A stretch of DNA of 20,036 nt from a virus, in IMG/VR virus record IMGVR_UViG_3300008448_000886, positions 1 to 20,036 of that record; one strand, given 5' to 3'. Below, one piece after another: positions 1 through 20,036 of this stretch (positions are counted from its first letter, which is position 1; each line of letters opens with the position of its first letter). The notes below the pieces were generated by a model that worked only from the letters and a program-made list of their open reading frames with translations, had not been told where the DNA came from and made no database searches. The position numbers were made by a program, and so were the translations under genes.

Positions 1-56
1 GCTATTTTTAGGGTTATACTAAGTAAATCCACCCGTTATTAACTGTTAGGTGAACC
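1..56 (+). promoter_or_regulatory. Upstream leader of the packaging operon with a -10-like hexamer
   Basis: Short non-coding lead into the terminase genes. A TATACT hexamer at 15-20 resembles a sigma70 -10 box, but its -35 partner would lie outside the window, so the promoter is only a possibility. A weak ribosome-binding site (TAGGTG, 47-52) sits a few bases before the ATG at 57. Confidence 0.25.
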
Positions 57-473
57 ATGAAACACAAGATGAACGAAAACGTAGTGCAAATGAGACTGCG
101 CGAGGCCAATCTTGCGAAGTGGCTGACTGAACCGGAGTCATGGGATAAAGAAATCTTTGCGGGAGAGGTCGCGCAAGCCATGATTAACGCCTACGGACAA
201 GACGTTAAGTTTGACGAGCATTTAATTACAATGCTCTCAGACCAGATGGATACTTACGTTAAGGCTGCAAAGGCTTTGCTTGCGGAAGATTTAATTGAGT
301 TCGCAAACAATGGCGCTAGAATGGCAAACCCCAATCAAAAGGTTCGGGATAGTTCATTAGCTAGGGTTATGCAGCTATTAACTATGCTTGGTCTTGTTCC
401 AAGTGGCAGACCAAAAAAGTCTGCTGCGCCTAATGAAATTGACGAATTACTTGAAGGGCCGAAAGTCGCATGA
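57..473 (+). CDS. terS: Terminase small subunit, P27-like
   Basis: Likely small terminase subunit (138 aa), which recognises phage DNA and hands it to the large subunit for cutting and packaging. The C-terminal half carries a pattern typical of the P27/Terminase_4 family: an Asn-Pro (residues 92-93) followed by a helix and then LGLVPSGRPK near residues 111-120. The N-terminal part is predicted helical and charged, but I see no clear helix-turn-helix. It lies directly before the large subunit and overlaps it by 4 bases (ATGA), the usual terS-terL arrangement, which suggests translational coupling. The ATG at 57 is preceded by TAGGTG; a second in-frame ATG at 69 is a possible alternative. Family assignment rests on pattern and position. 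Confidence 0.75.
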   Translation: MKHKMNENVVQMRLREANLAKWLTEPESWDKEIFAGEVAQAMINAYGQDVKFDEHLITMLSDQMDTYVKAAKALLAEDLIEFANNGARMANPNQKVRDSSLARVMQLLTMLGLVPSGRPKKSAAPNEIDELLEGPKVA

Positions 474-2131
474 AATGGGAAGATGGAGTTCAGTACGCTA
501 GGGAAGTTTCACTAGGAAACATTGACGTATGCAAGGATGTTCAGCTTGCGTGTCAGCGGTTTCTTAATCATTTAGAAAATAAAGAATGGCGATGGGAATT
601 CAGGCCGGAATATGTTGAGCATGTTCTTCGATTTGTATCCCATGTAAAGCACGTTAAAGGCCCGATTGCGGGAAAGAATATGGAGTTAATACCATTCCAA
701 ATTCTTTTGTTATGTGCGATTTACGGATTCAGGGATAAAAAGAATCCAACTATAAGGATGGTTCAAGATGTTATTTTGTTTATCCCTCGCAAGGCTAGTA
801 AGTCAACTCTTATATCAATCATTTCACTTTATGAACTCCTTTTTGGTGAAGTTGGTTCAGAGGTATATTGCACCGCAGTTGATAGGACTCAAGCAAGCAT
901 TGTATTTGATACTGCTAAAGGCATTATTGAATCACTACCGGCGCAGATTGCATCAAAGTTTACGGTCTATCGTAATGAAGTAAAAAAGGCTGACGATAGC
1001 CAATCTAAATTTACTGCGTTAAGTCGAGACAGTAAAAAAACTGGCGACGGTAAAAATCCCTCGGTTTCGATTATTGACGAAGCGGCGCAGATTACCGAAC
1101 GGAACTCTATTGAGGTTATCCATTCGGGTATGGTGGCAAGGCAAAACCCTTTGCGGATTTACATTACTACCGCGTCGTTTACTAAAGAGACTTTGTTCTT
1201 TGAGAATCTTCAATATCTAAAAGCTATGCTTACAGGTCAGTGCGAAGATAACCCGCGCTGGTTTGGTTTACTTTATGGATTGGATGAAGGCGATGATTGG
1301 AAAGACCCAAAGAATTGGGCAAAAGTTAATCCTATGCATGGAATATCAATTAACGCGGAAGCCATTGAGCAAAGAGTTAAAGAGGCTCAGTCAAAGCCAT
1401 CGTCTGTTAATGAGCTTTTGTGCAAGACGTTTAATGTTTATGTCTCGGCCAACTCTGCGTGGATTGACACTGGACATTGGGAAACTGCGACAAAAGGTAA
1501 ACCAGAACAAGACCCGGAAGCGACGTTTATTGCGTTTGACTTGGCGGCAACTAGAGATTTGAACGCGGTATGCACTTTACATAGGTATAACGAGGAAAAG
1601 TATCACGCGGAGTTTATGTTTTTTTTGCCGGAAGAAAGTTTAGATTTTATTCCTAGTCATTACAAACCTATTTTCCTGCAAGCGGTTTCACGTGGAACGC
1701 TAAAATTAACAGAAGGTAATGTTGCAGACTACGCTGAGATTGAAGTGTTTATTCGCCAGCAAGCAGAAAAGCATACTGCTAAAGAAATTGGTTTTGACGC
1801 ATGGAACGCCGCAGCTTTAGTTAGTAAATTGTATGAAAACGGTTTACCAGTAAAGAAAATCGGGCAGGGAATGTCTGTTCTTAACAATCCGTCAAAGCAC
1901 GTTGAAAAGTTAATCCTGAGTAAATCTATTTCCCACGACCATGACCCGTTTGTTTTGTGGCAGCTTGGAAACTGTGAAGTTTACGAGGATGTAAACGGAA
2001 ATAAGAAAATCAGGAAGAATTCTGCTGATACTTCCGCAAAAGTTGACGGAATTATTGCAATGATTATGGCGTTTCATTGCGCTCTTGACAATCCATTTGC
2101 TAATACTTCATATGGTTTCAGAAGTTTTTGA
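470..2131 (+). CDS. terL: Terminase large subunit (ATPase and nuclease)
   Basis: DNA-packaging motor and headful/cos-cutting nuclease (553 aa, normal for HK97-type TerL). The ATPase domain comes first: a Walker A-like loop PRKASKST at residues 106-113, a Walker B SVSIIDEA around 198-205 with D203 and E204, and a coupling motif TTAS at 233-236. The RNase H-like nuclease domain follows: candidate metal-binding aspartates are D357 (in FIAFDLAA), D443 (in GFDAWN) and D526 (in KVDGIIA). This fits the Terminase_1 family. The Walker A loop has AlaSer where the related PRKNGKS loops have AsnGly, but the terminal Lys-Ser is intact, so it is probably active. The start overlaps the terS stop by ATGA. 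It is followed after 29 bases by the portal gene. Confidence 0.95.
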   Translation: MKWEDGVQYAREVSLGNIDVCKDVQLACQRFLNHLENKEWRWEFRPEYVEHVLRFVSHVKHVKGPIAGKNMELIPFQILLLCAIYGFRDKKNPTIRMVQDVILFIPRKASKSTLISIISLYELLFGEVGSEVYCTAVDRTQASIVFDTAKGIIESLPAQIASKFTVYRNEVKKADDSQSKFTALSRDSKKTGDGKNPSVSIIDEAAQITERNSIEVIHSGMVARQNPLRIYITTASFTKETLFFENLQYLKAMLTGQCEDNPRWFGLLYGLDEGDDWKDPKNWAKVNPMHGISINAEAIEQRVKEAQSKPSSVNELLCKTFNVYVSANSAWIDTGHWETATKGKPEQDPEATFIAFDLAATRDLNAVCTLHRYNEEKYHAEFMFFLPEESLDFIPSHYKPIFLQAVSRGTLKLTEGNVADYAEIEVFIRQQAEKHTAKEIGFDAWNAAALVSKLYENGLPVKKIGQGMSVLNNPSKHVEKLILSKSISHDHDPFVLWQLGNCEVYEDVNGNKKIRKNSADTSAKVDGIIAMIMAFHCALDNPFANTSYGFRSF

Positions 2132-2150
2132 TATATAATCCGTGAAAATC

Positions 2151-2156
2151 GGAGGG
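2151..2156 (+). promoter_or_regulatory. Strong Shine-Dalgarno site of the portal gene
   Basis: GGAGGG lies 4 bases before the ATG at 2161 and is the strongest ribosome-binding site I see in the window. It fixes the portal start and suggests that the portal gene is translated independently of terL. Confidence 0.75.
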
Positions 2157-2160
2157 TTTC

Positions 2161-3558
2161 ATGGGAATTTTAGATATTTTCAGTAAGAAAAAACAAACCC
2201 AAAACGAAGCCAATACTGTTCTTGGTCAGTTGCAACTTGGTAATCAAGTTATTTATTCGACCGCGAATAGACAGCCTACCGCATCTCAACTTTTATATGT
2301 AACCACCTCAAGCAATACTGTTGCCGGAAGGCAGGTTGATGTATCCCTGCTAACTCGCAATAGCACGATTATGTCGTGCGTCGGACTTAAAGCAAGAGCG
2401 TTATCTCAACTCCCCGTTTCAATTATGTATAAAGTTGACGATGGCACTTTTGTTGATGCACTAAAAAGCGACAAAGTAGGCGCAAGAGATAAGAACAAAG
2501 CAAAACAAGTATTAAATCTTCTGCAAGAACCAAACAATTTTCAGAGCAAATATGAGTTCTGGTATCAATGGTCTATGTGGCAAGACATTGCAGGTGAATC
2601 GTTTACTCTCTGGTGGCGTAAAGACCAAAAAGATTCAACTCAAACCCCGATTGAAATGTATAACCTTGATTCGACTTTAATCTCGGTTATTCTGACTGCT
2701 ACTCGCTATCCTTCGTATCGCTTGTCTACTCCCTCATACGGGTTTAGCAAAGATGAACCGCTTGCCGCACATCAAGTCATGCACATTAAAGAAGCTGCGT
2801 GGCAAGGTTCCAGCGGTTTCAATAAAGGCATCTTAGCAACAGAACTTGTTGCATTAGACCAAGACATTGACCTTTACGCCAATTTTGTAATGCAGAATGG
2901 TGCGAAGCCTTCGGGTATTTTTGTTACTGAGCAAGTAATTCCAGATGCCAAATACAAAGAAATCGCGGCCAGATTAAAAGAAGCATGGTCTGCAATGACT
3001 GGTTCTAGGGCAGTTGACCAAAGTAAAGCTGGTCAGGGTATGTTGCTTGATCAGGGCATGAAATATATGCCGGTAGATATGTTGACTATTCAGGATGCCG
3101 ATGTAGCAAACCTGAAGATGCAAACCATGAAACGTATCTGCGGCCTTTTTGGTGTTTCTCCTGCGATGATTGGTATTGCTGATGGTAAATACAACAATAC
3201 CCAAACAATGCTTGATGAATTCTACAAAACTACCATGTACCCTATGGTTATTAGTATTGAGCAAAAGTTAAAGCAGCATTTGTTAAAGGGATTTCCTAAC
3301 TTATGCGTAAGATTTGATACCAAAGAATTCTTGAAGGGCGCTCCGCTTGACCAGATGAATTTGGTTACTGCTGGCGTTAAATCCGGGATTATGACTCCCA
3401 ATGAAGCGCGTGAATATTTGAATATTGCCAAAATTGAAGGCGCTGACGAATTGGTTTCTATAGATAAATCTGCTGAACCAATACCCGGTAGTGGGTCGCA
3501 AGATACTGGTGGTGGTGGCGGTAATCAGACTCGCCGCATGAATATTGGAACGACATGA
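2161..3558 (+). CDS. Portal protein, HK97 family
   Basis: Dodecameric head vertex protein through which DNA enters and leaves. The 465-aa length and composition fit the HK97-type Phage_portal family. Supporting segments are an N-terminal SLLTRNSTIMSCVGLKARAL region (about residues 61-80) followed by LPVSIMYK, a central SGIFVTEQ segment, and the MKRICGLFGVSPAMIG motif, which is characteristic of these portals. The last ~25 residues are low in complexity and glycine-rich (GGGGGN), so are probably a disordered tail. Position between terL and the prohead protease is the canonical HK97 order. The stop overlaps the next small ORF by ATGA. Confidence 0.93.
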   Translation: MGILDIFSKKKQTQNEANTVLGQLQLGNQVIYSTANRQPTASQLLYVTTSSNTVAGRQVDVSLLTRNSTIMSCVGLKARALSQLPVSIMYKVDDGTFVDALKSDKVGARDKNKAKQVLNLLQEPNNFQSKYEFWYQWSMWQDIAGESFTLWWRKDQKDSTQTPIEMYNLDSTLISVILTATRYPSYRLSTPSYGFSKDEPLAAHQVMHIKEAAWQGSSGFNKGILATELVALDQDIDLYANFVMQNGAKPSGIFVTEQVIPDAKYKEIAARLKEAWSAMTGSRAVDQSKAGQGMLLDQGMKYMPVDMLTIQDADVANLKMQTMKRICGLFGVSPAMIGIADGKYNNTQTMLDEFYKTTMYPMVISIEQKLKQHLLKGFPNLCVRFDTKEFLKGAPLDQMNLVTAGVKSGIMTPNEAREYLNIAKIEGADELVSIDKSAEPIPGSGSQDTGGGGGNQTRRMNIGTT

Positions 3559-3764
3559 ATCTGTTAAGAAAAGCGTTGTCTATACTTACTTCACAGATTC
3601 GTCAATCTGATGTTAAACTCGGCGCAAGTAGAAAACCCCACAAGATAACAGACGATAATCAATCGCTTAAAAATGGGGTAATCAATGAAAAATCTACTTC
3701 TGGTTTGCGAAGCAAAAGTAAATCTGGAGCAAAGCGCGGAAGAAAGCCAAAGTCCGTCGGGTAA
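3555..3764 (+). CDS. Small basic protein of unknown function between portal and protease
   Basis: A 69-aa ORF whose ATG overlaps the portal stop (ATGA), which favours translation by coupling. Its last 80 bases overlap the protease gene in another frame, which is unusual in an otherwise minimal-overlap operon. The product is rich in Lys, Arg and Ser. Its C-terminus (KRGRKPKS, about residues 60-67) loosely recalls DNA-binding AT-hook sequences but lacks a strict GRP core. I do not recognise a family. It also bridges what would otherwise be a 126-base gap between portal and protease. It could be a real small gene or merely a leader ORF that delivers ribosomes to the protease start. Confidence 0.45.
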   Translation: MNLLRKALSILTSQIRQSDVKLGASRKPHKITDDNQSLKNGVINEKSTSGLRSKSKSGAKRGRKPKSVG

Positions 3765-4452
3765 GATTGAAGCTAGAGTTACGACTTGGGGTGCGCGTGA
3801 AGGCGCAGACGGTCGTAAATTCTATTACAAGCCAGAGGGTTTTCAATCTTGGGTAAATGAGTTTTCGGAAGCTGGAAAACCTTTACCAATGTTTCTGAAT
3901 CATAACGACATGGGTATGCCTGTCGGTGAATGGACAGAATTCAATTTTGACAATGAAGGAATGACTGCAAACGGTCGTATTTATACGAATACCGTAGGCG
4001 GTTCAGACCTTTATACGGTTCTCAAAGAATCTCCTAATTTGTTTGGTGGCGTTTCTGTCGGTGCATATGCCGAAGAAGCCATGATGGTTAATGCTGATGG
4101 CGAACCAGACCAATCTGACGAAGCCTACTTCCAGATTACCAAAGGTGGTATTCGTGAAGTATCGGTTGTCATGTATCCAAACAATCCTAATGCTGAAATC
4201 CACAAATTAGAATTTGCTGGATTAACAGAGCGAAAAATCGAGAAAATCCTGCGGGATGCCGGGTTTTCACGTAAAGATGCGGCCACCGCGTCTAGTTCTC
4301 TCAGGGAATACATCAAGCGGGATGCTGATGTAGAACTTGAGAATTCCCCAACTCAGCGGGATGCTGATGCGGTGGTACACGAAGCCGAAGAAATTTTACG
4401 TGCTTTACAAGTGCGTGAACTTTCTAAGGAAATTTCCAAACGCATTAAATAA
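3685..4452 (+). CDS. Prohead maturation protease, HK97 U35 family
   Basis: Serine protease (255 aa) that cleaves the capsid scaffolding domain during head maturation. The catalytic His is most likely H73 in FLNHND and the nucleophile S124 in GGVSVGAY. Their spacing of about 50 residues matches HK97 prohead protease. A further conserved block REVSVVMYPNNPNAEI spans about 157-172. After the protease domain comes a helical extension beginning LTERKIEKILRDAGFSR (about 180-196), a tail common in this family, then charged sequence with a repeated RDAD (212-215 and 225-228). The start at 3685 follows GGGG about 10 bases upstream. It directly precedes the first capsid gene, whose N-terminal domain is its expected substrate. 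Confidence 0.9.
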   Translation: MKNLLLVCEAKVNLEQSAEESQSPSGKIEARVTTWGAREGADGRKFYYKPEGFQSWVNEFSEAGKPLPMFLNHNDMGMPVGEWTEFNFDNEGMTANGRIYTNTVGGSDLYTVLKESPNLFGGVSVGAYAEEAMMVNADGEPDQSDEAYFQITKGGIREVSVVMYPNNPNAEIHKLEFAGLTERKIEKILRDAGFSRKDAATASSSLREYIKRDADVELENSPTQRDADAVVHEAEEILRALQVRELSKEISKRIK

Positions 4453-4461
4453 AGGAATATC

Positions 4462-5787
4462 ATGAAAGAAGTCATTGAAAAGCTGGATGCCATTGAAGCG
4501 GCTAATGTCGCCAAAGTGGAAGAAATCAAGGGCGAAGTTGCTAAGTCGCTGGAAGAAGTAAAAACCCAAGTAACTGAGCAAGTTGCTGCGCTGGAAGCCA
4601 AAGTCGCCGCGATTCAAGCGCCTTCGGTTATCAAAGTCGCAAAAAGTATCAAAGAAGATGTAAACCGGTCGGTAAAAGAACAACTGCGCGATTTCTACAA
4701 ATCCAGCCGCACGATGGAAAAAGAAATCAAGATGTTTGCAGATGAAGGTCAGTATGATGCCTACATCAAAGAGGCGGCAGACCTGAATGGCTCTGGCGCT
4801 GGCATTGGCGGTCGTACCGCTTATGACCCGATGTTTGTTGCTCTGCGTCTTGCTAACCCGATGCGTGGTGTTTCGCGTAATGTATCGACCGAAGGCGCAA
4901 CGTATCAGTTCCGCGCAAAAACCGGCAATACCGGCCCTGCGTGGGGTTACACCATTCAAAACAACGGCGCTGCAACGACTGTAGCCACGAACATCTGGCA
5001 ACTGACGCTGCAAGACCTGAACGTGCAATTCCCAATTCGTACCGCTGCGCTGGATGACATTGACGGTTTGGAAAGCAATGTTGTTTCGGACATGCTGGTT
5101 GAATTTTCGGAAGTTGAAGCATTGTCGATGATTAAGAACGACGACCAAGATGCAGGTGCGGCTTATGGCGGCACTAACGGTCTGCGCGGCCTGAATCAAT
5201 ACGGCGGCAACAATGCTTCTTATGCTGGCGGCACGATTTCTGTCGCGGATTACGGCACTAGCGGTACGGGTTCTTCGTCTGGTCTGCATGACATTGCAAC
5301 GTATGACCAAATCACTACCAATGGTGATACTGCCGTAAACAATGTCAGCTACAAAGACTTGATTAACTTTATCCACGACCTGCCGCAGCAGTATTGGACT
5401 CCGGGTTGTAAGTTTGTAATTAACCCGCTGATGCTGGCTGGTATCCGTGGTCTGGTTGACGATAACGGCACTCCGGTTTTTGAACGTATGTCGCCGCTGG
5501 AATACCCCGGCATTGTTGGTCGCTTGCTTGGCTTCGATGTTGTCGTGAATAAATATCTCGACAATCCGACTTCGCCGGGTACTGACGATGGCGTTTCTCT
5601 GTATCCGATGTATTTCGGTGATTGGAGCCGTGGTCATACCATCGTTGACCGTCTGAACATGGTTCTGCGTCGCTACGACCAGACCTTGCCGGGTTTCATC
5701 ACGTTCTACGGTGAAAAGCGTCTTTGCACCAGCGTAGTTGACCCGTTCAGCATCATTCGGTATCGCTCTACCGCAACCGGAGCGTAA
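4462..5787 (+). CDS. Major capsid protein 1, HK97 fold with N-terminal delta-like domain
   Basis: Principal head subunit (441 aa). Residues 1 to about 100 are a Lys/Glu/Ala-rich helical, coiled-coil-like segment equivalent to the HK97 delta scaffolding domain, which the upstream protease would remove. The HK97-fold core starts near residue 104 with a Gly-rich GSGAGIGGR, then LRLANPMRGVSR, PIRTAALDDIDG, a GLRGLN loop (about residue 240), and a C-terminal PGFITFYGEKR (about 412-422). A good ribosome-binding site (AAAGGA, 4451-4456) precedes the ATG. Codon use differs from most neighbours: Leu is mostly CTG and third positions are richer in G/C, as expected for a very highly expressed gene. A terminator-like hairpin follows the stop, and a paralogue follows that. 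Confidence 0.93.
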   Translation: MKEVIEKLDAIEAANVAKVEEIKGEVAKSLEEVKTQVTEQVAALEAKVAAIQAPSVIKVAKSIKEDVNRSVKEQLRDFYKSSRTMEKEIKMFADEGQYDAYIKEAADLNGSGAGIGGRTAYDPMFVALRLANPMRGVSRNVSTEGATYQFRAKTGNTGPAWGYTIQNNGAATTVATNIWQLTLQDLNVQFPIRTAALDDIDGLESNVVSDMLVEFSEVEALSMIKNDDQDAGAAYGGTNGLRGLNQYGGNNASYAGGTISVADYGTSGTGSSSGLHDIATYDQITTNGDTAVNNVSYKDLINFIHDLPQQYWTPGCKFVINPLMLAGIRGLVDDNGTPVFERMSPLEYPGIVGRLLGFDVVVNKYLDNPTSPGTDDGVSLYPMYFGDWSRGHTIVDRLNMVLRRYDQTLPGFITFYGEKRLCTSVVDPFSIIRYRSTATGA

Positions 5788-5790
5788 TAA

Positions 5791-5827
5791 AGGTGGGGGA
5801 GCAAGAAAACTTGTTTCCCCTCTTTTG
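5791..5827 (+). terminator. Terminator-like hairpin between the two capsid genes
   Basis: Bases 5795-5805 and 5810-5820 form an 11-bp stem (two G-T wobbles) closed by an AAAA loop. The strong lower stem is GGGG/CCCC. It is followed by TCTTTTG, a short imperfect T-tract. The structure fits a weak or partial Rho-independent terminator, or an mRNA-stabilising 3' hairpin for the first capsid message. It would be expected to lower expression of capsid gene 2 relative to gene 1. The stem is visible in the sequence; the function is inferred. Confidence 0.6.
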
Positions 5828-5850
5828 AATAAAACGAGATTGGATAATCT

Positions 5851-6882
5851 ATGAGCCTGATTCTTGATGCAGTTAAAAAGACACTCAAAGAAGGAGAGGC
5901 TACCGTTAATCTTGCGGAAGCATCGACTTTAACCGCTTCGGGTTCAGGTGTCGGCGGTCGAGTTATTTATGATGATGCGTTCGCTGCTTTGCGCTACGCT
6001 AACCCTATTCGCATGATGAGCCGTGTTATTACTACTATCGGCTCTGATGAAGCATTTGTTGTAAAAACTGGTAACGCTACCGTAATCCAATCGGGTTCTA
6101 CTAATCCGTGGGGATATGGCATAAAGAATAACGTTGGAAACTACGACGCTTCGTTTTGGCAAATTTCGCTGAAATGTATTAACGCAGTAGTTCCTATTCG
6201 GACTGCTGTTATGTCCGATATTGACGGTTTTGAAGAAACGATTGTTGAAGATATTGCTCTGGAATTTGCTCAACAAGAAGGTTTGAGCATGGTTCTAAAC
6301 AATGATTTATCAAGTGGAACCGCTACTCCGCAAACAGGTAGTACCGATGGTCTGCGCGGATTGAATTTCTACGCAGGTTCTACCAGTGCCGCATCGTTTG
6401 GCACTAGCGGTTCGGCTGATACCAATGGTCGGCATACTATGTTGCAAGTAGCGCAAGCTAGTGCGGCTTCGGTTGCGTATAACGACATTATGAATCTTGC
6501 ATCTGCACTACCTTCTCAGTATTGGAACAATCCTTCTACTGCTTGGATGATGCACCCGACTACAATTAAGAATTTGCGCGAACTGCGCGACGACCAACAA
6601 CTGCCGTTGTTCCTTGATATTGGCGAAGTTGACGGTTATGCAGTTGGGCATATTGCTGGTTTCCCCGTAATTCCTAATCCGTACATGGACATTGCTGGAA
6701 GCGGTAAATTCCCCGTTTATCTTGCTGCTTGGAATAGGTTTGTAACGATTGCGGATAACGAAGAAATGAAGCTGCAAATGTTGGAACAAACTGCGCCCGG
6801 TTTTGTAACCTTGTATGCCGAAAAGCGCACTTGCTCTACCATTCGGGATGTATTCGCGGGAGTTCGGCTCTACGGTGCTTAA
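5851..6882 (+). CDS. Major capsid protein 2, HK97-fold paralogue lacking the delta domain
   Basis: Second capsid-like protein (343 aa), colinear with the core of the preceding gene. Matching blocks are GSGVGGR (31-37) to GSGAGIGGR, LRYANPIRMMSR to LRLANPMRGVSR, PIRTAVMSDIDG to PIRTAALDDIDG, the identical GLRGLN, LPSQYW to LPQQYW, and PGFVTLYAEKR to PGFITFYGEKR. Only about 22 residues precede the shared core, so the scaffolding domain is absent. The ribosome-binding site is weak (GGAT near 5842) and lies behind a terminator-like hairpin. Codon use is less biased than in gene 1. It is probably a minor head protein, for example a pentamer/vertex subunit as T4 gp24 is to gp23, but a size-determining or decoy role cannot be excluded. 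The capsid fold is near certain; the role is inference. Confidence 0.88.
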   Translation: MSLILDAVKKTLKEGEATVNLAEASTLTASGSGVGGRVIYDDAFAALRYANPIRMMSRVITTIGSDEAFVVKTGNATVIQSGSTNPWGYGIKNNVGNYDASFWQISLKCINAVVPIRTAVMSDIDGFEETIVEDIALEFAQQEGLSMVLNNDLSSGTATPQTGSTDGLRGLNFYAGSTSAASFGTSGSADTNGRHTMLQVAQASAASVAYNDIMNLASALPSQYWNNPSTAWMMHPTTIKNLRELRDDQQLPLFLDIGEVDGYAVGHIAGFPVIPNPYMDIAGSGKFPVYLAAWNRFVTIADNEEMKLQMLEQTAPGFVTLYAEKRTCSTIRDVFAGVRLYGA

Positions 6883-6894
6883 TAGGGGCGGCAA

Positions 6895-8305: not shown

Positions 8306-8342
8306 AACAAGACTTTTATTAACTTTATTAAGGAATTAAAAA

Positions 8343-8864: not shown

Positions 8865-8874
8865 AAGAGAAAAA

Positions 8875-10368: not shown

Positions 10369-10377
10369 GGTTTTATT

Positions 10378-13044
10378 ATGGCTAATCAAATTCTTGCGCG
10401 TCTCGGCGTGGTAATGACGCTTAATGTTGCCCAATGGGAAGATGAAGTCAATAAAGCCATTGAAGCCGAAAAGAAATTAAAACGTGAAATCACAAGACAA
10501 AATAATGATATTGAAAAAGAAATATTAAAACTTACTTATGCCGTTAAAGATTACGGAAAAGAAGTAACTTTAGTAGAAAAATTAGAGCGTGAATTTGCCT
10601 CTGGCGGTAAATTTGCTCAAGCAACAGAATCAAGAAAAGATGCTTTATTATCTCAAGCAAGAGCAATGGATTCTCTTGTTGCATCTAGCAAAAAAGCACA
10701 ACAAGAGACAGTAAAAGCTGCGGGTTTAACGACCTATCAGTTACAGGCTCTTAGCTATCAAACAACGGATATTGTGACCAGTCTTGCCGGTGGTCAAAAT
10801 CCGATGCTTGTATTGCTGCAACAGGGCGGTCAGTTACGCGACCAGTTCGGCGGTGTAACCAATGTATTTAAAGCCTTTGCTCAGGTATTAACTTTAACAA
10901 GGGTTGTTGTCGGCGGATTAGCTGCGGCATTTGGAACTCTCGCTTACGCTGCGTACAAAGGCAATGAGGAATTCAAAGAATTTAATAACTCTTTAATTCT
11001 ATCTGGCAATACTGCTGGATTGACTTTTGATAAATTCAGAGGATTAGCCCAATCACTTGCTGGCGGCGGTATGGTTGGTTTAAAGGATGCAAAAGACATA
11101 TTTGCATCATTAGCTTCGTCCGGTCAGTTCACATCTAAATCTATTGAATCTGTCGCGCAGTCTATTGCGCTTGTATCAAGACTTAGCGGCCAATCTGTTG
11201 ATGTTGTCGGCAAAGAACTTACTTCCGCGTTTAACGGAACGGCATCTTCAGCAAAAAACCTGAATGAAAAATATAACTTTTTGACGCTTGCCCAATACCG
11301 TCAAATTGAAGCGTTAGAAAGGGCCGGTGATAAACAGGGCGCTATTGTTACGCTTTCTCAGGCATTAAATGAAAAATTAGAAAAGCAAACTCCGCAATTA
11401 GGAACGCTTGCTAAACTTTGGAATTCTATTGCCGATGCTTTTGAGAAAATCAAAAACATTGGTGCTCCAGATACAGATTTAGAGAAATTAGAAAAACTTG
11501 CACAGCAAGTTGGAATTTATGAAACTTTAGCAAATGCTCCTACTGGATTTGGTAGTGATGTTGCAAAGAAAAGATTAAAAGAATACACAGACCAATATTT
11601 TGCTTTGTCTAAAAAAATTAGCGAAGATAATAAAAAAAGAGAAAGCGATGAAAAGAAGGCGGAAGATGAACGCCGTAAAATTGAAACAGCAACTCCGTTA
11701 GAAGCTCTTATAGATAAAGAATATCAATTAAGGAAAACTTTAAACGAAGGTTTATATCAACAGCGTTTAGCTAATTCTTTTGGTTTGGCAAAAATTGATG
11801 AAGAAGCAAACAAGAAAACGCAAGATGCAATATTAGAATATCAAAAGAAAAATGATAAAGAAAAGCAACAAAACATACTGCAAAATGAAAATCAATTAGT
11901 TGCGGAACTCAATAACATTGAATCAGAGCGTATTCAAAAACGCAAAGCGATGGAATTTGAGGCTCAAAAAGCCATTAACGAAAAGATTAGTTCTGTATTG
12001 ATAGAGGTTGATGCCAATAGAGAATTATTAAATTTGTTTAAAAGTAAAAAGGTAGTTACGCAAGATGATATAGAGCAAATAAAAGTTCGCGCAAAATTAG
12101 CTGATGAAATTGCTAAGGTTATGGCTAATCCTTCGCTTTCTGAAGAACAAAAACGAATTAGCGCGGAGTTATTAACCCAAGCCTATGCCCAAAAAGAAAT
12201 TCTTGATGGCAGGGTAAAACTTGCACAAAAGGCGGTAGAAACAGAAAAAGCTGTGCGTGATGCACAAAAGACTGAATCTGATTCTTTGGCAATGGAAAAG
12301 CGAAAGCTGGAAATTTACAGTGAAAATCTGTTAATGACCGAAGCGGAAAAAGATATTGCTTTAAGTCGATTGGAGACTGAACAAAAGATTGCTGCTATCC
12401 GCCAAAAGATTCTTGATAATCCTGAGTTTGGTCAGCGTGGCAATGATTTGATTGCCAATCAGCAATTAATACAACAGCGTAGGGAAGAAGTTATTGGTCT
12501 TACTGAGCGATTGAAAGTATTGCGCGACGTAAACCAAGCTGTTTTTGGCAACATGGAAAACGCGATAACTAACTTTGTTAAGACAGGTAAGCTATCGTTT
12601 AAAGACCTTACTCGGTCAATCATTCAGGACATTTTGGCTATTTACCTGAAATCCCAAATGCTCCAAATGTTTAAGGGGTTTGGAGGATTATTTAGCGGCG
12701 GTGGTGGCGCTGCGACAACTGCTGGCGGAACTCCGATGATTGGTGATTTTGGATTTTCTACTGGTGGAACAGGTTATGCCGCAGATGGTGGTTATATTAG
12801 CGGCCCTACGATTGTTGGAGAAAACGGCCCTGAATTGTTTATCCCTAGAACCGCAGGAACCATTGTTCCTAATCAGCAAATGGCAGGAATGACTAGCGCA
12901 CCGCAAGTAGTGTATAACGGCCCTTATATTGCGAACATGCAAGCCATTGATACGCAGTCTGCGGCGCAATTTTTGGCAAGGAATAAAGAATCAGTATGGG
13001 CAGCTAACCAATCGGCCTCGCGGTCAGTTCCGCAAAGTAGGTAA
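10378..13044 (+). CDS. Tail tape measure protein
   Basis: Sets tail length and is later ejected with DNA (888 aa). The N-terminal ~100 residues are coiled-coil. A conserved block YQTTDIVTSLAGGQNPM then continuing to LLQQGGQLRDQFGG (about 127-160) is the TMP_2 signature. A hydrophobic stretch follows (about 165-195, VVVGGLAAAFGTLAYAAY), possibly membrane-inserting during DNA delivery. Long Lys/Glu/Gln-rich helices fill about 380-720. Residues around 730-765 (FVKTGKLSFKDLTRSIIQDIL) match the lambda-type tape measure C-terminal domain. A Gly-rich linker and GENGPELFIPR motif end the protein. At 0.15 nm per residue the tail would be up to about 130 nm (estimate). Confidence 0.95.
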   Translation: MANQILARLGVVMTLNVAQWEDEVNKAIEAEKKLKREITRQNNDIEKEILKLTYAVKDYGKEVTLVEKLEREFASGGKFAQATESRKDALLSQARAMDSLVASSKKAQQETVKAAGLTTYQLQALSYQTTDIVTSLAGGQNPMLVLLQQGGQLRDQFGGVTNVFKAFAQVLTLTRVVVGGLAAAFGTLAYAAYKGNEEFKEFNNSLILSGNTAGLTFDKFRGLAQSLAGGGMVGLKDAKDIFASLASSGQFTSKSIESVAQSIALVSRLSGQSVDVVGKELTSAFNGTASSAKNLNEKYNFLTLAQYRQIEALERAGDKQGAIVTLSQALNEKLEKQTPQLGTLAKLWNSIADAFEKIKNIGAPDTDLEKLEKLAQQVGIYETLANAPTGFGSDVAKKRLKEYTDQYFALSKKISEDNKKRESDEKKAEDERRKIETATPLEALIDKEYQLRKTLNEGLYQQRLANSFGLAKIDEEANKKTQDAILEYQKKNDKEKQQNILQNENQLVAELNNIESERIQKRKAMEFEAQKAINEKISSVLIEVDANRELLNLFKSKKVVTQDDIEQIKVRAKLADEIAKVMANPSLSEEQKRISAELLTQAYAQKEILDGRVKLAQKAVETEKAVRDAQKTESDSLAMEKRKLEIYSENLLMTEAEKDIALSRLETEQKIAAIRQKILDNPEFGQRGNDLIANQQLIQQRREEVIGLTERLKVLRDVNQAVFGNMENAITNFVKTGKLSFKDLTRSIIQDILAIYLKSQMLQMFKGFGGLFSGGGGAATTAGGTPMIGDFGFSTGGTGYAADGGYISGPTIVGENGPELFIPRTAGTIVPNQQMAGMTSAPQVVYNGPYIANMQAIDTQSAAQFLARNKESVWAANQSASRSVPQSR

Positions 13045-13046
13045 TC

Positions 13047-13727: not shown

Positions 13728-14317
13728 ATGTAATTGCGCCAGTTGAAAATACTAACAACATTCGTTACGCACAATTTGTGCGTGTAACGACTGCTGACGA
13801 AGTATTTAGGTTTGCTACTACTCCCGCACCTATAACGGTTCCTTCAGTTGACGCGCAACCGTTTGACGCGGTTGGTGTATTAATGAAGGTTGGCGATGCT
13901 CAAAAAGACATTAAATCTACAGCAAACGAAACTGCGTTTACTTTAATCGGAATTGATACCGCAATGCTTGGTTGGGTTTTGAGTCTAAATGTTAAAGGCT
14001 CAAAGATTGAAGCATGGAATGGATTTTTTAACACGGATGGAGAATTAATTACTGGCGGCGGTAGTGGTGGTCTTTATAAGTTCTTTACTGGTTATGTTTC
14101 CTCGTTTTCGATTTCCGAGGAATGGCTAGAAGAAATGAGACAGTTTGTTGGAACCATTACTGTAACCGCATCTTCTATTCAGTTAATTCTGCAAAACAGA
14201 ACCGCAGGACGATATACAAATAATAATTCTTGGCAATTCTTTAATTCCGGCGATACCAGCATGAACCGTGTTGCGTTTGTTTCGACCATAAATTATTACT
14301 TTGGCAAAACGCAATGA
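13724..14317 (+). CDS. Probable tail-tip/hub protein, minor tail protein
   Basis: A 197-aa protein between the putative distal tail protein and the GNAT gene. It contains a Gly-rich turn (GGGSGGLYKFFTGYVSS, about 110-126) followed by an alternating strand region and a terminal GDTSMNRVAFVSTINYYFGK (about 176-195). That ending recalls DUF2163/baseplate-hub-like minor tail proteins, which have a final 'D-x-F-x-x-V' strand and a Trp/Tyr-Gly-Lys end. The similarity is weak. Both ends overlap neighbours by ATGA, so it is tightly coupled to the tip operon. The hub role is inferred from order. Confidence 0.5.
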   Translation: MNVIAPVENTNNIRYAQFVRVTTADEVFRFATTPAPITVPSVDAQPFDAVGVLMKVGDAQKDIKSTANETAFTLIGIDTAMLGWVLSLNVKGSKIEAWNGFFNTDGELITGGGSGGLYKFFTGYVSSFSISEEWLEEMRQFVGTITVTASSIQLILQNRTAGRYTNNNSWQFFNSGDTSMNRVAFVSTINYYFGKTQ

Positions 14318-14748
14318 TTTATCGTGCAACAAAATATCACAAACCAATCATTATTGATTTAATGACGCAGTTTGCAAATGAAAGTCCGATAGATTATTGC
14401 CATGCGTATTCTGATATGGAATACGGAAATAAGTTACTTGATGAAATATTTGCTGGCCGTGGTGCAATATTTCTAGCAGATGATTACGGAATACTTATGT
14501 CTATTATCCTTCCCTGTATTTGGTCGGATAAAATCTTTGGATTGCATGAATTAGCTTGGTATGTAAAACCAGAAAATCGTGGTGGAATGGCTGGATATAA
14601 ATTATTAAAAGAATATAACGAATACGGAGAGTTATTAAAAACTACCGGCAGGATTAAGTATTACACCATAAGCCGATTGGTTACTAGCCCCGATGTGGAC
14701 TACTCCAGATTCGGTTATCGCAAACAAGACGAAATCTGGATTCAATAA
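14314..14748 (+). CDS. GNAT-family N-acetyltransferase
   Basis: A 144-aa protein with the GNAT fold pattern. It has an N-terminal strand and helix (IYRATKYHKPIIIDLM), a central pair of strands AIFLADDYGILMSII (about 51-65), then strand 4 and the acetyl-CoA pyrophosphate loop HELAWYVKPENRGGMAGYKLL (79-98 region), and a final YSRFGYRKQDEIWI (130-143) typical of the GNAT C-terminus. The loop departs from the strict Q/R-x-x-G-x-G/A form, so activity is probable rather than sure. The substrate is unknown. It overlaps both neighbours (ATGA at the start, TAATG at the end) within the tail-tip operon, suggesting action on a virion protein or a host protein late in infection. Confidence 0.72.
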   Translation: MIYRATKYHKPIIIDLMTQFANESPIDYCHAYSDMEYGNKLLDEIFAGRGAIFLADDYGILMSIILPCIWSDKIFGLHELAWYVKPENRGGMAGYKLLKEYNEYGELLKTTGRIKYYTISRLVTSPDVDYSRFGYRKQDEIWIQ

Positions 14749-17700
14749 TGAAATACATTGTTGCATTTTTATTGTTGTTTGGTTTTGCGGCCCCTGCTTT
14801 TGCTGTTGGTATGACTATTGCAATTGCGGCGGGTTTAACTGGTTTTGCTGCTGCTGCTACTGCTTTTGCAATAAATATGGTTGCATCTGCAATTATATCT
14901 AAAGCATTTTTTAGCCCTAATCAGGGTGCACAAGACTTTGCAGGTCAAGCAAAAAACCCCGGTAATCGTCAGCAAATTCCGCCAGCAACAGATAACAAAT
15001 TACCAGTGGTCTATGGTTCTGCTTGGGTAGGCGGCACAATCATTGATTTAAGTATCACTGAAGATAACCAAAATCTTTACTATGTATTGGCTTTGTCTGA
15101 AGTTACTGGAAACGGCGCAGACACAATTACTTTCGGTGATATTTATTACGGCGGTAAAAAAGTAGTATTTAACGGCACAAACTTATATAGTGTGGATTCT
15201 TTGCTTGATGAATCTACCGGAGAAAGTCAGCCTATAAACGGTAACATTAAGTTCTACCTTTATAGCAATGGCATAAATTCCCCGCAGAATTCTAGTTTGT
15301 CCGCAACTCAAGTAATGCAATCTAGCGGTCTTGTTTGGCAATGGGATACATCGCAACAAATGACTCATTGCGCTTTTGCAATTCTGCATTTAACTTACAA
15401 CCAAGACCTTAATATTCAAGGTATCGAACAAACCAAGTTTCAGATTACAAACTCCCGTTCTAAGCCGGGAGATTGTTTTAATGATTATTTAACCAATACG
15501 GTTTATGGCGCGGCCATTCCCACGAATCAAATAGATACGGCTAGTCTTACCGCGCTTAATACTTATTGCGATGGTTCATTTACATACGAGCCTTATGCCG
15601 GTGGTTCTGCTACGCAAACCCGTTTTCGTTTTGATGGTGTAATCGACACTAACAGAACGATAATGCAAAACCTTCAAGATATGGCATCGTGTTGTGATTG
15701 CCTCTTGAAATACAATGAAATATTGGGAACTTGGGGTGTTGTTGTTCAATCGCCTACTTACACGGTAGCAATGAACATTAACGATAGCAATATGGTTTCT
15801 GCTATCAGTATCACGCCGATTGATATTGCTGGCTCTTACAATGTCATTGAATGTAAATTCCCTGACGAAAACAATCAGGACTCATTTAATTCCTCGACGT
15901 TTGACCTTGCGGAAATTGCGCCGGAACTGTTGTTCCAAAATGAACCAGTAAACAAACAATCGGTTTCCTTGCCGTTAGTTAATAACGACGTTCGCGCACA
16001 ATACCTTGCTAACCGGATGCTTAAATCTGCAAGGGAAGATTTACAAGTTCAATGCACAATTAACTATGTCGGTCTGCAATTAGAATCTGGTGATATTGTT
16101 TCTGTAACCAGTGTGAATTACGGATGGGTTGCCAAGTTATTTAGAATCAATAAAGTTGTGCAGACGTTTGAGGATAGCGGACAAGTCTTAGCCAAGCTGA
16201 CACTTTCTGAATATAACGCCGCAATTTATGACGATGTTTCCGTAACTCAGTTTGCACCTGTTCCCAATAGCGGAATTGGAAGCCCTACACTTTTCGGAAA
16301 TATTCCGGTTCCGGTAGTTGCGGCCCAATACCCGACGATTACTAATCCTACGTTTGTAGTTCAAATTACAAGTAGTTCGGTAGGTATTATTCAATACGCG
16401 GAACTTTGGTATTCGGCATTTTCTAGTCCGACGCAAGAGCAACTTATCTTTGCGGGAACTACCGAGATTCAACCAAACGGAAACCCGTATCCTGTTTCTA
16501 CCGCAATGCCGAGTATTAGTATTTCGGACATTCCTAGTGGTAATTGGTATTTCTTTTCTCGCATGGTTAATAGTATTGCGACTAGTCCTTACAGTTCCGC
16601 AAGTTCTGTATTCCAATGGCGACCAAGCACTTTCCAGTATTCCGAGCGTTATTTAGTTGTTGCTTACGCTGACAGCATAACCGGAACTAATTTTGATTTA
16701 GACCCTAGAAATCACTCTTACTACGGACTTCTAAATCAAGACAGCGTAACCCCAAGTATTACGGCATCTGACTATACTTGGTATTTAGCAGACCCTAATT
16801 TTGGGACTGTTTATTACCTGTGCTATTCCAATCGAACCGGAAGGAAGTTTAGTTTTGATACTGGATTAGCTGGATATGCTGCTGGTACCGGTGCTTTTGT
16901 TCCAAGTCAAACCAATTTGTTTGACCCAACTGTATGGGCTGCTTTAGCTGACGGAATAAATTTTATTGATTTAGACAGAGCAACAGGACAATTACTTTCT
17001 ACCGGAACAACATCTGTTGGAACAGGTGAAATCTCTGTAAACAACACACCTGATGGTAGAGTTATTGCTTCACTTCAGCAATTCTTGGATTTCGGTGGCG
17101 CTTATACACAAACAAGTTCAGTTGCAAACCTTACTATTGATATTTATGGTCGAGTGGTAGGTTTAGAAGAACCGGACGAGTTTTATTTAACCAAACAATC
17201 TTTTACAGCAACTTCAGGACAAACGGTATTTTCTGTTACTAGGGCATCTGGTTATATCTCAGGTCAATGCTTTGTTCTTCAAAACGGATGCTTATTAGAT
17301 ACATCTGAATACACTGATACCGGAGGCGCTACCGGAACTGTTACGTTATCTGTTGGCGCTACAACGGGTGATATTGTTACGATTGTTTCATTTAAATCTG
17401 TTTCTAATTTATCCATCATTACAACTGGCGCTTCTGGAACCGGCTCAGTAGCAACACTAACATTCACTTCAAAACTAATAATTCCTTTTACCGTTGGTCA
17501 AAGCATTACTATTACAGGTCTTGTTCCTTCTGGATATAACGGAACTTACACAGTAACAGCTTGCACTAATAGCTCTGTTTCTTATGCTAATACCACAACT
17601 GGAAGTCAAACAACTTTTGGAACCATAACTTTAACAAGCCCAATTTACGCTTCGTTTTCTAGGAATACTGCGACCCTTACTGATGCAAGCGAATATACCG

Positions 17701-18089
17701 CATCAGGATTTACATTAGTAAGCGGCTTTGAATTGTTATTCCTGAATGGAACGGTAGTAAATGAGCAAGACTACAATATTTCAGACCAGACTATTACTGA
17801 CTTCCCAAATGTTACATCTGGAAAATTAACTGTTATCCAATGGAGTCCTAATAACTTAACAGTTCCAAATGGAAACCCTGTAAATATTATTACAAATACA
17901 GTTATAGGTCAGACATTGTATTCTTTCAATTTTGACGTTGATGCTTTCAATTTATACAACAACGGATTGATGTTATTGCAGGGAACGGATTACACTACCG
18001 CAACTGGTACTTATACGTTATCTAATACACCGACTACTATTACCAATTTACTTTTACAACAAACCTTCGCAAGAACGGGGGCAGTATGA
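14748..18089 (+). CDS. Central tail-tip / host-specificity protein, lambda gpJ-like
   Basis: Large tail-tip protein (1113 aa). Residues 1-19 look like a Sec signal peptide (basic K2, hydrophobic core, AxA-type end APAFA), followed by another hydrophobic segment (about 22-53). The gpJ-like region starts near PPATDNKLPVVYGSAWVGG (79-95) and includes a Phage-tail_3-like stretch (about 301-335). It also includes ARE...LESGDIVSVTSVNYGW (428-460) and LSEYNAAIYD (486-495), all characteristic of tip hubs. A fibronectin-III-like module spans about 525-635. The C-terminus is fibre-like, with three related beta units (about 812-884, 964-1035, 1043-1110) and an inserted Ig-like domain (about 890-962). 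An alternative start at M22 (14811) lacks a ribosome-binding site. Confidence 0.9.
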   Translation: MKYIVAFLLLFGFAAPAFAVGMTIAIAAGLTGFAAAATAFAINMVASAIISKAFFSPNQGAQDFAGQAKNPGNRQQIPPATDNKLPVVYGSAWVGGTIIDLSITEDNQNLYYVLALSEVTGNGADTITFGDIYYGGKKVVFNGTNLYSVDSLLDESTGESQPINGNIKFYLYSNGINSPQNSSLSATQVMQSSGLVWQWDTSQQMTHCAFAILHLTYNQDLNIQGIEQTKFQITNSRSKPGDCFNDYLTNTVYGAAIPTNQIDTASLTALNTYCDGSFTYEPYAGGSATQTRFRFDGVIDTNRTIMQNLQDMASCCDCLLKYNEILGTWGVVVQSPTYTVAMNINDSNMVSAISITPIDIAGSYNVIECKFPDENNQDSFNSSTFDLAEIAPELLFQNEPVNKQSVSLPLVNNDVRAQYLANRMLKSAREDLQVQCTINYVGLQLESGDIVSVTSVNYGWVAKLFRINKVVQTFEDSGQVLAKLTLSEYNAAIYDDVSVTQFAPVPNSGIGSPTLFGNIPVPVVAAQYPTITNPTFVVQITSSSVGIIQYAELWYSAFSSPTQEQLIFAGTTEIQPNGNPYPVSTAMPSISISDIPSGNWYFFSRMVNSIATSPYSSASSVFQWRPSTFQYSERYLVVAYADSITGTNFDLDPRNHSYYGLLNQDSVTPSITASDYTWYLADPNFGTVYYLCYSNRTGRKFSFDTGLAGYAAGTGAFVPSQTNLFDPTVWAALADGINFIDLDRATGQLLSTGTTSVGTGEISVNNTPDGRVIASLQQFLDFGGAYTQTSSVANLTIDIYGRVVGLEEPDEFYLTKQSFTATSGQTVFSVTRASGYISGQCFVLQNGCLLDTSEYTDTGGATGTVTLSVGATTGDIVTIVSFKSVSNLSIITTGASGTGSVATLTFTSKLIIPFTVGQSITITGLVPSGYNGTYTVTACTNSSVSYANTTTGSQTTFGTITLTSPIYASFSRNTATLTDASEYTASGFTLVSGFELLFLNGTVVNEQDYNISDQTITDFPNVTSGKLTVIQWSPNNLTVPNGNPVNIITNTVIGQTLYSFNFDVDAFNLYNNGLMLLQGTDYTTATGTYTLSNTPTTITNLLLQQTFARTGAV
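17181..18086 (+). repeat. Three diverged fibre-repeat units in the C-terminus of the tail-tip protein
   Basis: Protein-level repeats at roughly 17181-17396, 17640-17855 and 17877-18077. Each has the order: a hydrophobic strand, an aromatic-x-x-NG or LNG turn (LQNGCLL, FLNGTVV, LYNNGLML), a 'Y-T/N' strand (SEYTDT, QDYNIS, TDYTTA) and a final strand. An unrelated Ig-like module (about 17418-17634) separates units 1 and 2. DNA similarity between units is low, so they are old duplications or exchange-prone receptor-binding modules. Confidence 0.5.
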
Positions 18090-18910
18090 CGCAAGCCTTT
18101 AATCTTTCACAATTAGCCAATAAAGTTAATTCTTCTGGTCAGTTAAATGTAGCCACAGGAGTTACCGGAACTGCTGCTGTAGCAAACGGCGGAACAGGCC
18201 AATCAACATATACAAACGGCGAATTGTTAATTGGAAACACGACAGGAAATACTCTTACCAAAGCCACATTAACTGCTGGCACTGGTATTACTATTACTAA
18301 TGGAACTGGTGCAATTACCATTGCGGCCATTGCTGGACAATTGCAATATGCCCTTTATACTTCTGGCACAGCAACTTGGACGGCTCCTACCGGAGTTACC
18401 CGCATAAAAGTTATCTGCATCGGTGGCGGTGGTGGAGGTGGAAACTGGGATGGTGGTTGCGTTAATAACGGAGGCAACGGTGGCTTTGGCGGTATTTCTG
18501 TAGGCATTTACACAGTAACTCCCGGCACAGGCTACGTAGCAACCGTTGGCGCTGGCGGAGCAGGCACAAATACAAGCTCAACAAACGGAGCCGCTGGTGG
18601 AACTAGCTCTTTAGGTTCGTTGCTGTCCGCGACTGGCGGTGGTGGTGGAGTCTCTGGGAACAGCACCGGCGCTGATGGTGCGAGTGGTGTTGGCACAAGC
18701 GGAGTTACCGGCAACGGTTCTGTTATTGGTGGCGCGGGAGGTAGTTTTACTGGGGCGCTTTTTCGCGGAAACGGGATAGGTTCAACGACGGCTGTAACAT
18801 GGACTGCGGCTCTAAACCTCGTTCCCGGCGCAGTGGGCGCTGGTGGAACTACCTCATCCAATGCTTCTGGCGGCATTGGTGGCGCTGTTTACATTGAATA
18901 TATTGGATAA
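18086..18910 (+). CDS. Glycine-rich tail fibre / adhesin
   Basis: Putative receptor-binding fibre (274 aa). Residues 1-30 are probably the attachment part. Then comes a phage-fibre repeat ANGGTGQSTYTNGELLIG (33-50), followed by TLTAGTGITITNGTGAITI (61-79). From about 97 a glycine-rich domain begins (TWTAPTGVTRIKVICIGGGG) with runs of five to seven glycines and many GG pairs to the end. Such domains can fold as packed polyglycine-II helices, as in T-even gp38-type adhesins (known for that family; inferred here). The ATGA overlap with the tail-tip gene suggests co-translation and assembly together. Low complexity makes it prone to recombination. Confidence 0.85.
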   Translation: MTQAFNLSQLANKVNSSGQLNVATGVTGTAAVANGGTGQSTYTNGELLIGNTTGNTLTKATLTAGTGITITNGTGAITIAAIAGQLQYALYTSGTATWTAPTGVTRIKVICIGGGGGGGNWDGGCVNNGGNGGFGGISVGIYTVTPGTGYVATVGAGGAGTNTSSTNGAAGGTSSLGSLLSATGGGGGVSGNSTGADGASGVGTSGVTGNGSVIGGAGGSFTGALFRGNGIGSTTAVTWTAALNLVPGAVGAGGTTSSNASGGIGGAVYIEYIG

Positions 18911-18913
18911 CCC

Positions 18914-19144
18914 ATGAAAGCACTAATTTCAACTGTTGAACCCCGTGAAACTGGCTACCGTGTCGCTGAGGTAGAAGAAGATGGAAACATTTTTCCCGTT
19001 TCTCCTGAGTTGTTTTGGACTGATTGCCCGGATGATTTTAAGGCAGACGAGAAATGGTATGACCCTGTTGACCAGCAGTTCAAAGATTTCCCGGTGCCTG
19101 AGCCGCTGCCGCAACCGCAGACCGAAGGCACACAGCCGCTGTGA
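18914..19144 (+). CDS. Small acidic protein of unknown function, tail-module type
   Basis: A 76-aa protein. It has a short beta-rich first half (RVAEVEEDGNIFPVSP, about 16-31), then an aromatic/Asp-rich stretch LFWTDCPDDFKADEKWYDP (33-51) and a proline-rich C-terminus (VPEPLPQPQ). I recall similar small proteins at the end of tail modules in environmental phages but cannot name a family. The ribosome-binding site is weak (GGATAA upstream). The stop overlaps the next start (GTGA). It could be a fibre chaperone or a small virion decoration; neither is shown by the sequence. Confidence 0.65.
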   Translation: MKALISTVEPRETGYRVAEVEEDGNIFPVSPELFWTDCPDDFKADEKWYDPVDQQFKDFPVPEPLPQPQTEGTQPL

Positions 19145-19422
19145 CTATCCGCGTCCCTCCAGCACACAGCTTTACCTACGATGGCGCGATAGTGAACGTG
19201 TTTCATGCCAACAAGGGTGAGGGCTTGCCTAAACACGAGCATGTTTACTCCCATGCAACTTTTTGTGCTGCTGGTTCTTGCATTGTGCGAAAAGAAAACA
19301 AAGAAGTAATCGTAACAAAGCAAACTCAGCCAATAAATCTTAAAGAAAACGAATGGCATGAAATTGAGGCTTTAGAAAATGAAACGGTATTTATTAACGT
19401 ATTTTCTGAAATCAAAAAATAA
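19141..19422 (+). CDS. Small cupin-domain protein
   Basis: A 93-aa protein starting with GTG that overlaps the upstream stop (GTGA). The sequence fits a single cupin barrel. Motif 1 is GLPKHEHVYSHATFCAAGSC (28-47), with metal-ligand candidates H32, H34 and H38. Motif 2 is around LKENEWHEIEALENET (67-82), with H73. The length is minimal for one barrel, so it is probably a stand-alone metal-binding or sugar/ligand-binding cupin; the substrate is unknown. Its place after the fibre genes is unusual for an enzyme and may indicate a role in host surface or capsule chemistry, or in modifying a tail part. That is speculation. Confidence 0.72.
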   Translation: MTIRVPPAHSFTYDGAIVNVFHANKGEGLPKHEHVYSHATFCAAGSCIVRKENKEVIVTKQTQPINLKENEWHEIEALENETVFINVFSEIKK

Positions 19423-19512
19423 CACTCAAAAAAACACATGATATACTTATAAAAAACAAGACATGATTTAGGCTGCTGCGAGTGCGCGGCGCTTTAACCG
19501 GAAAGGGTAATC
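19423..19512 (+). promoter_or_regulatory. Intergenic gap with possible promoter before the endonuclease gene
   Basis: A 90-base gap, the largest in the window. It starts AT-rich and holds -10-like boxes (TATACT at 19442-19447, overlapping TATAAA at 19448-19453) without a convincing -35. It then switches to a G/C-rich patch (about 19471-19502) unlike its surroundings. An AAAGGG ribosome-binding site precedes the ATG at 19513. It probably allows separate expression of the homing endonuclease gene. Confidence 0.3.
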
Positions 19513-19986
19513 ATGGCGATTTTATATTGGGTTCATTCCCATGAACACAATGATATTTTCACGCAAGGTTATGTTGGCGTTACGCCAAACTTTGCCAAGC
19601 GTATGCGTGAACATAAACATAAATTTAAAAGTATTTGGAACAAAATTGTTATGGAAACAATTATTGTTGCCGAATCTTCGTATTGTTACGCAATAGAAAA
19701 TAAACTTCGTCCATTTCGTAATATTGGTTGGAATAAAGCCCCCGGTGGCTTTAGAAACAATACAATGATTGGCAAAGAAAATCCAAATTTTAATAAAAAA
19801 GGTGAACAAGCCTCTAATTTTAAAGGATTGTTTGTAACACCTAAAGGAACTTTTGTTCGTGCGGAAGATGCGGCAAAAGAGCATAATTGTGCAATTAGCA
19901 CGATTCACCGACGTTGTTGCGGAAGAATAATTGGCAAAAGAAAATTGCCGCCGCAAAATGGTTACTCATTTACGCAGAAAGTGTAG
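19513..19986 (+). CDS. GIY-YIG homing endonuclease with NUMOD-type DNA-binding tail
   Basis: Free-standing DNA endonuclease (157 aa). The N-terminal nuclease has LYWVH (4-8) and GYVG (19-22) in place of the GIY and YIG elements, a conserved R30 in KRMREH, the catalytic glutamate E62 in AIENKLRP, and N74 in WNKAPGG. The C-terminal part contains a NUMOD3-like GKENPNFNKKGEQASNFKG (87-105) and a NUMOD1/IENR1-like helix-turn-helix GTFVRAEDAAKEHNCAISTIHRRCCG (112-137), which would position it on DNA. All expected catalytic residues are present, so it is probably active. It is separated from the tail operon by its own leader, typical of SegA-type mobile endonuclease genes that invade phages. Confidence 0.88.
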   Translation: MAILYWVHSHEHNDIFTQGYVGVTPNFAKRMREHKHKFKSIWNKIVMETIIVAESSYCYAIENKLRPFRNIGWNKAPGGFRNNTMIGKENPNFNKKGEQASNFKGLFVTPKGTFVRAEDAAKEHNCAISTIHRRCCGRIIGKRKLPPQNGYSFTQKV

Positions 19987-20017
19987 GGTAAAGCCATCGC
20001 TATATTTAATAAAAACA

Positions 20018-20035
20018 CGCTTACACAAGTAAGCG
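20018..20035 (+). terminator. Hairpin at the window edge, possible terminator
   Basis: Perfect 7-bp inverted repeat CGCTTAC/GTAAGCG around an ACAA loop, preceded by an A-rich tract (20011-20015). A T-tract to the right would make it a bidirectional terminator closing the endonuclease gene and tail operon, but the window ends one base after the stem, so this cannot be seen. Confidence 0.5.
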
Positions 20036-20036
20036 G

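Follow-up and report, generated by a model that had tools for sequence, protein, structure and literature searches.

Elimination of GATC from a freshwater phage genome, probably within a wider avoidance of Type II restriction sites

In this study, a shortage of GATC was followed from a virus record of 20,036 bases (the window, the whole stretch of DNA that was analysed) into the genome from which it comes and into the genomes of its relatives. The window is contained in a 36.0-kb IMG/VR record, G001, with one base different (99.995% identical), and covers the half of a phage genome of roughly 36 kb in which packaging, head and tail are encoded. The best reading of the results is that the genome-wide elimination of GATC belongs to a much wider removal of Type II restriction sites; such avoidance is known from other phages but is unusually strong and variable here.

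Counting showed that the window contains a single GATC, at 3049-3052, exactly as given in a first-pass annotation made from the sequence, where 53.9 were expected from overlapping trimers and 73.6 from base composition alone. Its observed/expected ratio (0.019) was the lowest among the 256 tetramers in the window, the next being that of GTAC (0.225). In 1000 synonymous-codon shuffles of the 19.5 kb of coding sequence, 45.7 ± 5.2 GATC sites were obtained (minimum 30, maximum 61; z = -8.6), and CCGG, GCGC and CGCG showed no depletion in the same test. The claimed preference for GAC at Asp codons preceding a C-starting codon was also borne out, with 40 GAC and 1 GAT in that context compared with 88 GAC and 195 GAT elsewhere; similarly, Ile was encoded by ATC in 0 of 64 cases after a G-ending codon and in 66 of 356 cases in other contexts. 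The shortfall against the shuffles, together with these codon contexts, indicates that the GATC shortage is genuine and is brought about at silent sites. Other 4-base palindromes had been described as plentiful, which is correct for GGCC, CATG, AATT and TTAA but not for GTAC, which is strongly depleted in the window (15 sites, 67 expected).

The only GATC of the window lies within TTGCTTGATCAGGG in the portal gene. At the corresponding site, the close relatives L003-L007 have GACCAA, and the GATC-bearing relative L011 has TTGCTTGATCAGGG. From these sequences, the site may be a back mutation or, since L011 shares it, may have arrived in a short recombination tract.

The GATC density in the rest of the genome, which the first-pass annotation had proposed to check, was far from normal. 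G001 had 2 GATC sites against 102 expected; in the 16.0 kb beyond the window there was one, at position 35969 in a repetitive contig end, and it may have been created by the assembly. In G002, a sister genome of 37.7 kb with 92.4% identity across the first 17.4 kb, there was none against 116 expected. Based on the observed substitution rates, 78.9 GATC sites not shared between G001 and G002 were expected and 1 was seen, compared with an average observed/expected ratio of about 0.74 for other tetramers in this test. Other 4-base palindromes turned over freely between the two genomes, roughly 62-80% of their sites being common to both. Purifying selection against GATC is thus still active since the divergence of G001 and G002; selection had been correctly proposed, but with one new site where about 79 were expected, it does not belong to the past only.

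Sites other than GATC were also missing. A word was regarded as eliminated when its genome-wide observed/expected ratio was below 0.1 with an expectation of at least 15. By this measure GATC was eliminated from both genomes, as were CCWGG and GGWCC, the EcoRII and AvaII sites, respectively; the last two were absent from each genome (0/92 and 0/79, observed/expected, in G001 and G002 pooled). The non-palindromic words GAATGC (0/46) and GAAGAC (0/30) were absent from the pooled genomes, and the window itself contains no CCWGG, GGWCC, GAATGC or GAAGAC. GTAC was down to about a quarter of expectation in the two genomes (0.23-0.34).

Among the six-base palindromes, 28 of 64 were absent from G001 and G002 together, and 18 of the 26 that were testable in this comparison (expectation 15-50) were below 0.1; when the genomes were taken singly, 16 of 22 testable hexamers were eliminated in each. 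AAGCTT, CTGCAG and TTCGAA did not occur at all, and GAATTC (30/39), TTGCAA (40/56), TTTAAA (52/65) and several AT-rich hexamers were near normal. Only 29 of 1820 non-palindromic hexamers fell below 0.1, and 23 of these 29 contain GATC, GTAC, CCWGG or GGWCC. The eliminated words are thus not an arbitrary set but correspond to orthodox Type II specificities. Overall, the observed/expected ratio of six-base palindromes was 0.22-0.24 in G001 and G002, with a median of 0.43 in their clade and 0.76 in 61 random viral contigs, and values of 0.57 in T7 and 0.61 in lambda. The picture drawn by the first-pass annotation was incomplete, as there is also a large-scale lack of 5- and 6-base sites, and the avoidance that it ascribed to a GATC-cutting system concerns dozens of sites, of which GATC is just one. 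As a separate observation, the sigma-70 -10 consensus TATAAT/ATTATA occurred 9 times in G001 and G002, compared with 68 expected.

About 150 related contigs were collected in two scans with patterns derived from proteins of the window, including the terminase large subunit, or from an alignment of these; 144, many of them fragments, were left after removal of duplicates. For this set, the elimination threshold was applied to contigs down to 4 kb for words with 10 or more expected occurrences. One or more 4-base palindromes were eliminated in 106 of 144 relatives (74%) and in 14 of 61 random viral contigs (23%; Fisher p = 1.8e-11), and GATC was eliminated in 34 of 143 and 1 of 61, respectively (p = 2.8e-5), the p values being indicative only, with random contigs unmatched by lineage and relatives that are non-independent. 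Eight 4-base palindromes, ACGT, AGCT, CCGG, CGCG, GATC, GCGC, GGCC and GTAC, were eliminated in at least one clade member, in varying combinations, and the eight others in none. Co-elimination of sites, such as GATC with AGCT, was suggestive but non-significant in independent pairs. A partial depletion of CATG, to about 0.25-0.35, was confined to a single sub-group (e.g. L057, L063 and L064).

On a tree of the portal protein (2161-3558, + strand), GATC status required at least 17 changes, compared with a mean of 30.7 and a minimum of 24 for shuffled labels, indicating that elimination of GATC is inherited but labile. In L008 and L011, with about 80% portal identity, the GATC sites that would be expected are mostly or fully present. 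The clade phages also exchange modules, as seen in L007, whose portal is 92% identical and whose terminase is only 64% identical. A mosaic genome, G142 (L164 and L165), has 17 of 27 expected GATC sites in a 9.2-kb module and 1 of 90 in the other 29.8 kb; all 4 of its GCWGC sites lie within the module, and both parts have few or no GGCC and CCGG sites. We propose from G142 that modules preserve traces of the different restriction regimes to which they were exposed, and it is possible that G142 is a chimeric assembly.

The phage of the window is best placed in the clade of P19250A type. P19250A (KX815270), a phage of Methylophilaceae, is the closest isolate, with the same gene order in the head module, a terminase large subunit (470-2131, + strand) 62.5% identical and a portal 65% identical. 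In contrast to G001 and G002, it keeps GATC (111/123), and it has lost ACGT (0/20) and GGCC (0/47), with GTAC at 10/67. The other head and tail genes, assigned by PHROGs, included, all on the + strand, the terminase small subunit (57-473; phrog_83, E 8e-7), the major capsid protein (4462-5787; phrog_10, E 9e-29) and the tape measure protein (10378-13044; phrog_24, E 9e-106). A large tail protein (14748-18089, + strand) has a homologue in all compared clade genomes, and the P19250A annotation at its position is 'host specificity protein J'. Two major-capsid-like proteins are encoded in tandem (4462-5787 and 5851-6882; 37% identical over 358 aligned columns), with homologues of both in all compared clade genomes.

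The ORFs selected from G001 included those for ERF, YqaJ, NinG, MazG, HNH, collagen-like fibres and glycosyltransferases. Two long collagen-like proteins with GFSGISGYSG-type repeats, encoded at 476-4629 of L085 (G001 20476-24629), are probably tail fibres. They are followed by glycosyltransferase genes, one of which is fused to the sole methyltransferase domain found in G001. A tRNA-Leu (anticodon taa) at 8782-8864 of L085, on the minus strand, was found in G002 too. At 19513-19986 of the window, a GIY-YIG-like ORF gave a weak match under the Pfam cut-off, and none of the other genomes compared for gene content has a homologue; it is possibly a mobile homing endonuclease.

No restriction enzyme or DNA methylase was recognised among the selected G001 ORFs, and no integrase among the Pfam matches of selected second-half and tail ORFs. 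In 29 phage records searched, there was no D12 (Dam-type) methylase and one N6/N4 methylase, the latter in a phage different from that of the window; a phage-encoded methylase, suggested by the first-pass annotation, was thus not found in the window's phage. No gene was significantly linked to the absence of GATC when 7 GATC-free genomes were compared with 14 GATC-bearing ones, so the agent of GATC loss looks external to the phage.

The host is presumably a Methylophilaceae-like freshwater bacterium. Three routes to the host were tried and set aside. Searching for prophages in bacterial genomes yielded just two MAG contigs, one of which is probably mis-binned because it was placed in an archaeal bin. 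The phage tRNA-Leu had a best bacterial match of 87% and was uninformative. A family of 57 gammaproteobacterial genomes with RuMP-pathway genes (the family of G530) was considered as a putative Methylophilaceae and possible host family; it could be Methylophagaceae, and it gave one distant terminase match only. This family has tandem hexulose-phosphate synthase genes, with MutH nearby in the genomes checked; MutH was present in 53 of the 57 genomes and a D12 methylase in 51. A DpnII-type endonuclease was found in 0 of 137 and 0 of 57 genomes of two searchable bacterial families, the second being that of G530, and neither is known as the host family.

Taken together, these results make it likely that the phage lineage evades Type II restriction-modification because its genome offers nothing to cut. 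New GATC, CCWGG, GGWCC and other sites arising by mutation would make unmodified incoming DNA cuttable in hosts with a matching endonuclease, and selection would then remove such sites, mostly via synonymous changes. Since the eliminated words are sites of Type II enzymes and no agent was found in the phage, external restriction fits, and we infer that host endonucleases are the agent and that one of them recognises GATC. Of the DpnII/MboI-type restriction originally suggested, restriction-type selection at synonymous sites is the best reading; a GATC-cutting enzyme is deduced from the missing sites, the searches for the DpnII type having been negative. Against this reading, far more six-base sites are avoided than the enzymes of one host would readily explain, which calls for many hosts, many systems or some pressure of a more general kind on six-base palindromes. 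Published data show site elimination chiefly at orthodox Type II sites and among non-temperate phages (PMC6286503), and the Type II resistance of T7-like phages has been credited to the near-absence of EcoRI and EcoRV sites (PMC8594841).

Several other causes were considered. Host MutH might cut un- or under-methylated GATC in fast-replicating phage DNA and so drive GATC loss, an explanation that we consider unlikely, though less so than those below. phiX174 has no GATC, and counter-selection by MutH has been proposed for enterobacteriophages (Deschavanne and Radman 1991, as cited in PMC5014478); T7 nearly lacks GATC and CCWGG, and MutH and Dam-type methylase are frequent in the G530 family. 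However, avoidance of GATC alone, as expected from a Dam/MutH effect, was not what was found. The effect does not explain why G001 and G002 lack CCWGG, GGWCC, GAATGC and a large number of hexamers, nor does it explain the similar-looking losses of AGCT, GGCC, ACGT, CGCG and others in relatives; moreover, GATC is missing from only 34 of 143 relatives, and P19250A retains 111 GATC sites on a Methylophilaceae host. As the other sites lie beyond its reach, Dam/MutH could do no more than contribute.

A broad pressure on short palindromes, independent of host enzymes and with GATC as its strongest case, would agree with the absence of 28 of 64 six-base palindromes from the two genomes together. This is improbable in view of the sharp split between palindromes at zero and those near normal, the elimination of GAATGC and GAAGAC, which are non-palindromic sites of known enzymes, and the undepleted CCGG, GCGC and CGCG in the codon shuffles. 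Mutational or compositional bias, or codon usage, keeping GATC rare without selection is more improbable still: the clade is generally poor in six-base palindromes (median 0.43 against 0.76), but shuffles with the same codons never gave fewer than 30 GATC sites, the sister-genome comparison predicted about 79 new sites where one was seen, and L008 and L011 hold most or all of theirs; chance and codon usage were ruled out as causes by the shuffles and the substitution-rate test. Equally hard to credit is avoidance of the site of a GATC-cutting nuclease of the phage's own, serving for example to degrade host DNA, as HNH, NinG, YqaJ and GIY-YIG-like nuclease domains are encoded but no gene was significantly associated with the absence of GATC, HNH and YqaJ genes occur in GATC-free and GATC-bearing sets alike, the GIY-YIG gene is in one genome only, and the other eliminated sites would be left unexplained.

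Avoidance of Type II restriction, the preferred reading, has parallels in known phages. Like the non-temperate dsDNA phages of Rusinov et al. 2018 (PMC6286503), in which GATC is among the sites discussed, the phage of the window is small and has orthodox Type II sites below 0.1, and no integrase or methylase was recognised among its selected ORFs. In that work elimination was reported for about one-tenth of viral genomes, whereas here it was seen in 106 of 144 relatives, although the methods differ; a further difference is that the eliminated set varies here within one clade. T7 (NC_001604), an unrelated phage, is similarly short of GATC (6 against 141 expected) and CCWGG (2 against 83), with 14 of 33 testable six-base palindromes eliminated. 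Unlike G001 and G002, in which GATC, CCWGG and GGWCC are jointly absent or nearly so, T7 keeps GGWCC (54) and GTAC (168), and it carries Ocr. phiX174 has zero GATC where about 20 are expected (PMC5014478); it is a small ssDNA coliphage with a Dam/MutH host, and the explanation given for it covers GATC alone, whereas many unrelated sites are gone here.

In this clade, avoidance can be traced among close genomes, almost without recognised methylases, with an eliminated set that changes often and with visible recombination borders, so that the tempo of gain and decay of site avoidance becomes measurable. Tentatively, the clade may be an environmental one whose response to restriction consists almost entirely in changes to the genome sequence, its lineages repeatedly gaining and losing site eliminations and its exchanged modules carrying the signature of the regime from which they came. 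If this is true, one could read from the sites that a genome lacks which restriction enzymes its uncultured hosts have, and such profiles could serve to predict restriction systems in freshwater hosts that are uncultured.
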